Assembly (NCBI GenBank): GCA_016744065.1
Contig: JADGFA010000001.1
Location: 62,001-126,000, forward strand
Direction: 5' to 3'
Length of the DNA: 64,000 nt
Source: Gammaproteobacteria bacterium
Lineage (GTDB): Bacteria > Pseudomonadota > Gammaproteobacteria > SZUA-229
The notes under the pieces are model-generated. The model was not told the DNA's origin. It worked only from the letters and a program-made list of their open reading frames with translations, and made no database searches. Numbering within the stretch: the stretch's first letter is position 1; each line of letters starts with the position of its first letter. Position numbers and translations under genes: made by a program. This document shows positions 1,254-3,478 of the stretch, piece after piece.

Positions 1254-1739
1254 ATGACAGATAAAAAGATGTATGACGATCATGATCACTGGATGCAACA
1301 TGCCATCCAGCTAGCCCAAAAAGCAGCCGATGAAGACGAAGTACCTGTCGGCGCAATCATTGTTAAAGGTAATCAGCTTATTGCTGAGGGTTGGAATCGC
1401 CCCATACAATCACATGATCCATCGGCTCATGCTGAGTTGATTGCTATTCGAAGTGCAGGCCAGGTTTTAAGTAATTACCGTTTAATTGATACAACGATGT
1501 ATGTCACATTAGAACCCTGTTCCATGTGTGTGGGGGCAATGATTCATGCTCGGGTAAAGCGCCTGGTGTTTGGTGCGAGTGACTTGAAAACCGGTGCTAC
1601 AGGCAGTGCAATTAATTTGATTCATGATTCTGCACATAACCATAAAATTGATGTGTTAGGTGGTGTTATGGCTGTTGAGTGCAGAGAAATCTTACAGGCA
1701 TTTTTTAAGTTAAAACGAGAATCAAATAAAAATAAATAA
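1254..1739 (+). CDS. tadA: tRNA-specific adenosine deaminase (A34 to inosine)
   Basis: Deaminates the wobble adenosine of tRNA-Arg(ACG) to inosine. At 161 residues it has the normal length for TadA. The zinc-dependent deaminase signature is complete: H59-A-E61 (zinc ligand and proton-shuttling Glu) and PCSMC at 88-92, whose two Cys bind zinc. PVGA near 31-34 and the C-terminal helix ending in Lys/Asn-rich residues are also typical. The ATG at 1254 has only a weak purine-rich sequence upstream; a second Met at residue 6 is possible. The bases around the start (TTCAGAATGACAG) resemble one arm of an interspersed repeat seen elsewhere in the window. It follows guaA on the same strand and is the last gene before a long gap. 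Confidence 0.96.
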   Translation: MTDKKMYDDHDHWMQHAIQLAQKAADEDEVPVGAIIVKGNQLIAEGWNRPIQSHDPSAHAELIAIRSAGQVLSNYRLIDTTMYVTLEPCSMCVGAMIHARVKRLVFGASDLKTGATGSAINLIHDSAHNHKIDVLGGVMAVECREILQAFFKLKRESNKNK

Positions 1740-2091
1740 TTGCTGGAGTGGCTAATTGTTGTAATTGATTGTCATGGTTGTCATCTATGGCTTTAGTGAA
1801 ATGTCTTAACAGTTTGCCATAAAAATATCAGTCTCGTTGATTAGATGATTTTAGAGCGTTCCTGAATCTAAAGATATGTTCAATATTAAGTGGTGACATC
1901 ATAAGCCTTGTTTTTGAAGATAGGCGCTTTTGGATTGTAATGGGATATTCATATTATAGTATGTTCAGAATGAATGAGTCAGATTAAGCTCAGTATTTCA
2001 GTGTATTGATTTATATCAGAAGATATCATAATGGGGAAAATGGAATATGAGTCAGGCTCAGTTATCGGTATTTTTATTACAGGGTTTTTTC

Positions 2092-2097
2092 TATAGT
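2092..2097 (+). promoter_or_regulatory. Candidate -10 box (TATAGT) for the structured RNA
   Basis: TATAGT differs from the sigma-70 -10 consensus at one base. No good -35 lies 16-18 bases upstream (the best is AT-rich). A start about 7-8 bases downstream would fall at 2103-2106, just before the 5' arm of the 12-bp inverted repeat at 2110. That placement is the main reason to take it seriously. Confidence 0.4.
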
Positions 2098-2103
2098 ACC
2101 TAA

Positions 2104-2340
2104 ATAAAGAAAGCCAATATATTGATCGCTGTATTGTTCATGCGCAGAAAAGTAAACAGGGATAAATATTTAAATATAAAAATAGGGATATTTTCCCTCT
2201 TCTATATTGGCTTTAACTTGATTACACTATCCTCAAGTTGGAAATGCCGCCAACTTAAATCAATGCTAGATGCCCTTATCTGCATTGTTATTTAACCCGC
2301 CTCCTGTCCCGTAATCCTAAACAAGGCGGGTTTTTTTTGC
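2104..2340 (+). ncRNA. Candidate structured small RNA, about 235 nt
   Basis: No family is recognised. The gap between tadA and rsgA holds no convincing coding frame but a run of stacked structure. A perfect 12-bp inverted repeat pairs 2110-2121 (AAAGCCAATATA) with 2203-2214. Inside it AGGGA (2184-2188) pairs with TCCCT (2194-2198). After it AAGTTGG (2235-2241) pairs with CCAACTT (2250-2256). Then a 10-bp hairpin with one bulged T pairs CAATGC+AGAT (2261-2271) with ATCT+GCATTG (2278-2287). It ends in an intrinsic terminator at 2294-2338. A -10-like TATAGT sits just upstream. All hairpins are read on the plus strand, and the terminator is about 550 bases beyond the tadA stop, too far to be simply tadA's own. 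The boundaries are inferred. Confidence 0.6.
2294..2338 (+). terminator. Intrinsic terminator ending the candidate RNA
   Basis: AACCCGCC (2294-2301) pairs with GGCGGGTT (2325-2332), and the T-tract runs 2331-2338. The 23-base loop is long and C-rich. There is no matching T-tract on the minus strand, so it is oriented for plus-strand transcription. It also lies between convergent tadA and rsgA. Confidence 0.8.
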
Positions 2341-2461
2341 CTGAAAAAAATGTTAAATGATCAATCTTTAAAAAATGCAATTGAAATGTTTTAATTATGT
2401 AGCAGATTTAAGCTTATATTTATTTATAGTTAAGGTTATGGGGGAGATTATATAAATAAAT

Positions 2462-3478
2462 TTATTTAGTATATTCATTGATTGTTTTTAAATAACTATT
2501 AAATCGGAGTTGTGATATTTCACCATTTTTAAGTGCTTGTTGTATGGCGCATCCTGGTTCATGCTGATGATTGCAATTTGAAAATTTACAGTGGCCTGTA
2601 TATTTTCGTAATTCAATGAAACCGTGAAGTATTTCTTCGGCTGTTGAATTCCACAATCCAAAATCACGCACACCCGGAGAGTCGATTATAATTCCGTTGC
2701 TGGGTAATGAATAGAGTGTTGAGCTGGTGGTAGTGTGCGTGCCCTCACCACTGGCTGCTGAAAGTTCGCCTACACGGATATTTAATTCGGGCATCAGGTG
2801 ATTAATTAAAGATGACTTACCTACGCCTGATAAGCCTACAAATATACTGGTGTGTGATTGCAGTGTTTTTAATAAATCATCAAAACCACTGTTTGTTACT
2901 TTGCTGGAGGTGATGACTTTGTAACCTATGTTTTCATAGTCGCTTACCAGTTGTGTAATACGTTCGTTATTTTTACCTGCTAACAGGTCAATTTTATTGA
3001 TAAGAATGACAGGCGTTGCAGGCAGGTTTTCTGCGGCGATTAAGTAACGATCAATAAGGTATGGTTTAGGTTCTGGTTGTACTGCGGAGACAATTATAAT
3101 CTGGTCAATATTCGCTGCCATGGGTTTTAGTTTGCCGCCAAATCCTGGTTTTTGTAAAAGAGATTGACGTTCTTCTACTGCAATAATTACACCTTCATTA
3201 TTATCTGCAAGTGCGGCCTGCCAGATAACCTGATCACCACATACCAGTGCCCCCAGATTTTGTCTTGCTACACAACGGTGTAGCTTTTTGTCTTTATCTT
3301 CAACCAGCAGAGTGCGTCCATAGTTGGTGATAACCAGACCTGATTGTTCCGGCCCAAGCCCTTGCTGGGAAAGTGTCTCACTTTTTTTCTGTTGGTTTTC
3401 TAAAGCTTTTTCGCGACGTTTTTGTTGTATATGTTTAATACGTCGTTGTTGCTGATCGTTAATGCGTCTTTTTGCCAT
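2462..3478 (-). CDS. rsgA: Small ribosomal subunit biogenesis GTPase RsgA
   Basis: A circularly permuted GTPase that assists late 30S subunit maturation. Of 338 residues (E. coli about 350), the N-terminus is basic and Gln-rich, followed by an OB-fold. The GTPase motifs come in the permuted order expected: G4 NKID at 161-164, P-loop GLSGVGKSS at 215-223, and G3 DSPG at 266-269. The C-terminal zinc finger has C297, C302, H304 and C310. The start at MAKRRIND is the only sensible one, although no clear Shine-Dalgarno lies before it. It is the last gene of a minus-strand group with the cytochrome and M48 peptidase genes, though 166 bases separate it from the cytochrome gene. In many gammaproteobacteria rsgA neighbours orn, as it nearly does here. 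Confidence 0.97.
   Translation of the reverse strand: MAKRRINDQQQRRIKHIQQKRREKALENQQKKSETLSQQGLGPEQSGLVITNYGRTLLVEDKDKKLHRCVARQNLGALVCGDQVIWQAALADNNEGVIIAVEERQSLLQKPGFGGKLKPMAANIDQIIIVSAVQPEPKPYLIDRYLIAAENLPATPVILINKIDLLAGKNNERITQLVSDYENIGYKVITSSKVTNSGFDDLLKTLQSHTSIFVGLSGVGKSSLINHLMPELNIRVGELSAASGEGTHTTTSSTLYSLPSNGIIIDSPGVRDFGLWNSTAEEILHGFIELRKYTGHCKFSNCNHQHEPGCAIQQALKNGEISQLRFNSYLKTINEYTK

Follow-up and report, generated by a model that had tools for sequence, protein, structure and literature searches.

We found that the gap between the convergent genes tadA and rsgA in a 64-kb window (the whole stretch of DNA analysed, 64,000 nucleotides) holds a strongly folding plus-strand element that ends in an intrinsic terminator. 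The reading that we tentatively prefer, with a probability of roughly 0.4, is that this element would specify a species-restricted small regulatory RNA of about 230 nt that ends at the terminator at 2294-2338. A plain 3' untranslated region of tadA with the same terminator is nearly as likely. An independent RNA gene at 2102-2340 is possible, and the searched genomes revealed no conserved family for it. The gap measures 722 bp from the tadA stop (1739) to rsgA. Orthologues of the two neighbours were found in 40 (tadA) and 44 (rsgA) other genomes of the family, and the closest named relatives, judged by RsgA (82-89% identity), are unclassified gammaproteobacterial metagenome assemblies. The features of the locus are collected in Table 1.

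Table 1. Features in and around the tadA-rsgA gap, in window coordinates.
Feature	Position	Strand	Basis and remarks
tadA, tRNA adenosine deaminase	1254-1739	+	ORF; upstream neighbour, reads towards the candidate element
TATAGT, weak -10-like hexamer without -35 box	2092-2097	+	motif scan
Closing 12-bp stem, 5' arm	2110-2121	+	repeat search and fold
Weak inner stem-loop, within closing stem	2125-2163	+	fold
51-aa ORF across hairpins, judged not coding	2140-2295	+	ORF list, coding score
Small 5-bp hairpin AGGGA/TCCCT, within closing stem	2184-2198	+	fold
Closing 12-bp stem, 3' arm	2203-2214	+	repeat search and fold
7-bp hairpin, loop AAAUGCCG	2235-2256	+	fold
11-bp hairpin with one bulge, loop GCCC	2261-2287	+	fold
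Intrinsic terminator: 9-bp stem AACCCGCCT/AGGCGGGTT, 3-bp inner stem, C-rich loop, T tract	2294-2338	+	fold, terminator scan
rsgA	2462-3478	-	ORF; downstream neighbour, convergent

The initial annotation had described a perfect 12-bp inverted repeat together with three further local hairpins, and our repeat search and folding located all of them, the hairpins being those at 2184-2198, 2235-2256 and 2261-2287. The first of these three can be read on the minus strand as well, where it is followed by ATTTTTAT. With the loop limited to 150 nt, the repeat is the only perfect 12-bp one in the 64-kb window. Such a repeat arose at a mean of 0.03 per shuffle of the 722-bp gap and at 0.8 per shuffle of the whole window, compared with the one observed. 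Since the initial annotation had surveyed the whole window, where 0.8 are expected, the repeat is weak evidence on its own. Stronger evidence comes from the overall fold. The plus strand of 2102-2340 reached -59.9 kcal/mol, while shuffled sequences reached -43.6 +/- 3.9 kcal/mol and none of 200 shuffles folded as well (z about -3.7 to -4.2). Its parts also fell below their own shuffles, with z-scores of -3.8 for the closing stem, -3.3 for two hairpins and -4.3 for the hairpins plus terminator. Among 62 intergenic stretch-and-strand scores of the window the element ranked first, with a rough z of -5.35 (20 shuffles), where the intergenic stretches as a group had a mean z of -1.2 and a standard deviation of 1.5. 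The fold of the preceding 350 nt (1740-2090) was ordinary relative to shuffles, which limits the structure to the proposed RNA unit. The minus strand of 2102-2340 folded nearly as well as the plus strand because inverted repeats fold on both strands; it is the T tract on the plus strand that gives the element its direction.

The terminator, which had been placed about 550 bases past the tadA stop, was recovered about 555 nt beyond it, as a hairpin at 2294-2332 with a T tract that runs to 2338. In a simple hairpin-plus-T scan outside genes over the 64 kb, it was clearly the strongest of three candidates (-14.3 kcal/mol); the other two were weaker, and neither lay close behind a gene on the same strand. 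As a separate observation, strong intrinsic terminators appear to be scarce across the window (1-64000), with three outside genes by this simple scan. No strong plus-strand terminator was found between the tadA stop and 2294, where the consensus scan returned only the small hairpin at 2184-2198. This absence favours the possible alternative that a guaA-tadA transcript carries a long 3' untranslated region for which 2294-2338 is the operon terminator, the other hairpins being stabilising or incidental and no separate RNA gene being present. Convergent gene pairs also need a terminator. However, 555 nt would be long for such a region, the remainder of the 3' end lacks structure in contrast to the strong fold of 2102-2340, and relatives do not keep this tadA 3' end. 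An RNA processed from the tadA 3' end is intermediate between this alternative and a small RNA.

No plus-strand promoter was found in the tadA-rsgA gap by consensus scan, and no sigma-70 promoter is recognisable there, a result that a 3' untranslated region explains while requiring nothing new. The initial annotation had taken TATAGT as a promoter that sets the transcript start just before the first stem. The hexamer is present, but it has at best one of six -35 matches at spacings of 16-18, and hexamers as good as this one are common, with a window average of about 5 per 722 nt and 7 in 1740-2345. The proposed start site is therefore a guess. For the broader claim of a 230-nt non-coding RNA, the structured plus-strand RNA, the terminator and the lack of fit to any Rfam family held up, while an independent gene with a promoter at 2092 is putative. 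The 5' end of the proposed small RNA is putative as well; transcription would begin within the gap at a promoter that escaped the scan, or the RNA would be released by cleavage from a long 3' end of tadA.

As had also been claimed, the element contains no good coding frame. The longest frame starts at TTG 2122 or ATG 2140 and ends at 2295. The 51-aa ORF has a coding score of -0.22, which falls between genes and off-frame sequence; real genes average 0.42, and the score is under the 5th percentile of their chunks. No Shine-Dalgarno sequence was seen for it, and it has no relative. We consider it very improbable that the element is the mRNA for a 51-aa hydrophobic peptide of the type I toxin kind, with long-range pairing around the start. 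The frame does stop just short of the terminator, and its product would have a basic start and a hydrophobic stretch, but AT-rich DNA yields such peptides by chance, and the low coding score, the missing Shine-Dalgarno sequence and the lack of a relative all speak against a gene. A decayed coding sequence in the gap was likewise rejected: the gap gave no coding score, and peptide comparison with the loci of relatives brought no convincing match.

BLAST of the element against its own genome and 95 relatives, including four of the same genus, returned, besides the element itself, only matches 20 to 36 bases long, and a search of 368 genomes of the class returned matches of up to 39 bases only. 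These matches were short and AT-rich, and we dismissed them as chance. In its own genome the element is single copy at E <= 0.01. The whole gap gave no plasmid match and one short, weak phage match by BLAST, and the exact hairpin pattern did not occur in viral contigs. Covariance models were built from the one sequence, with R1 representing the closing stem/5' part plus hairpins and R2 the 3' half plus terminator, and were run over up to 53 family genomes. Self-scores were 238 bits (R1) and 151 bits (R2), and the best non-self scores in the family were 27.2 and 22.0 bits, with no credible relative. The R1 non-self matches that were inspected aligned over the A/T-rich closing stem and lacked the 3' hairpins, and were rejected. 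As a positive control for BLAST, the same search with the 6S RNA of the same genome as query found it in 45 of 53 other family genomes, and within the genus in three of four genomes at 92-97% identity. If the element was an RNA conserved like 6S, then it would have been seen. A fast-evolving RNA could escape these searches. The initial annotation had proposed conservation of the stem in close relatives as a check, and its outcome is negative in the sense that no relative searched carries the element, whereas 6S was found by the same BLAST. Because the other genomes searched contain no homologue and the gap is not conserved, the data allow no demonstration of a conserved stem or of compensatory changes, nor of selection on the structure.

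The tadA and rsgA genes adjoin in many genomes of the family, and the gap between them has been rebuilt repeatedly. It measures about 36 bp in G048 and 88 bp in G015. In G002 it spans about 500 bp and includes CGCAGAG repeats and a diverged second copy of the tadA 3' end. Genes for a sensor kinase and selD-like and DsrE-like products occupy about 5 kb in G001; the same genes recur in G003, where a CzcCBA-like efflux operon joins them and the gap reaches 17 kb. In G004 it extends to 27 kb. Names of these junction genes were assigned by eye from translations, while positions and ORFs were computed. The junction is different in every genome of the genus, and overall (window 1740-2461 and relatives) it looks like an insertion hotspot. 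Besides the duplicated tadA end and the CGCAGAG-type repeats, the G002 gap (L068:1500-2200) contains a TCAAGGGGTCAGACTCGTTG inverted repeat, and the G009 junction carries speD/speE-like and decarboxylase-like genes. In the window, 14 bases of the tadA 3' end (1692-1705, TTACAGGCATTTTT) recur as a near-repeat at 2077-2090 (TTACAGGGTTTTTT), directly 5' of the candidate RNA; the copy at 2077-2090 is possibly a trace of a duplication like that in G002, or chance.

Since the junction has been rebuilt so often, gain or loss of a whole RNA gene would be unsurprising, and on this ground a relic is likewise plausible. The element could be what insertion and deletion left behind, either as a decayed mobile or repeat element or as the end of a vanished gene of which the terminator survived. 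The differences across the genus from G001 to G004 argue for such an origin, which we nevertheless regard as unlikely, given that the element is single copy in its own genome, that relatives' loci gave no convincing peptide match, that plasmid and phage matches amounted to one short, weak phage hit, and that the fold is intact. It is also unlikely that the small RNA is a functional, recent de novo gene confined to a single species of this uncultured gammaproteobacterial genus, which would have originated at a junction remade in one genome after another. RNA-seq reveals many lineage-specific small RNAs in most bacteria, and the element, if transcribed, would be one more of these without bringing a new principle. 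What is useful here is the negative result and its positive control: a striking fold in a single genome with no conservation.

A search of Rfam 15 over the element, carried to E <= 10, gave nothing at the gathering cut-off, and the best sub-threshold matches had E > 1, in line with the earlier statement that no RNA family was recognised. A literature search for a small RNA between tadA and rsgA returned no paper title on such an RNA. Like 6S RNA (RF00013), the element is a structured RNA of similar size, but it has a different architecture and no RF00013 match, and the genome's own 6S RNA lies elsewhere (G000:C78:91539-91726, 72 bits). Like the protein-titrating RNAs of the RsmZ/CsrB type (RF00166), it has GGA in a few places (AGGGAU twice, UUGGAAA), but these motifs number only about three by eye, the element has no RF00166 match, and the genome's best RsmZ-like match lies elsewhere and below the cut-off. 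We rejected both identities. Hfq-dependent trans-acting RNAs have a U-rich stretch before the terminator hairpin, a U tract and C-rich loops that suit pairing with ribosome-binding sites, and their conservation in relatives is usual, not required. Unlike the gammaproteobacterial members of this class, the element has no recognisable promoter and no homologue in the genomes searched by BLAST and covariance models. Like them, it is intergenic, with a few hairpins, C-rich loops and a strong Rho-independent terminator whose U tract would form the 3' end, and hfq is present in the same genome (G000:C54:16445-16630, 100.6 bits). Hfq would bind through the U-rich stretch at about 2286-2292, ahead of the terminator, together with the U tract, and the C-rich loops (AAAUGCCG, GCCC and CCUGUCCCG) may pair with the ribosome-binding sites of target mRNAs. 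This anatomy suits a trans-acting role of that kind, and on the reading that we tentatively prefer the element is a young, species-restricted small RNA that would probably act with Hfq.
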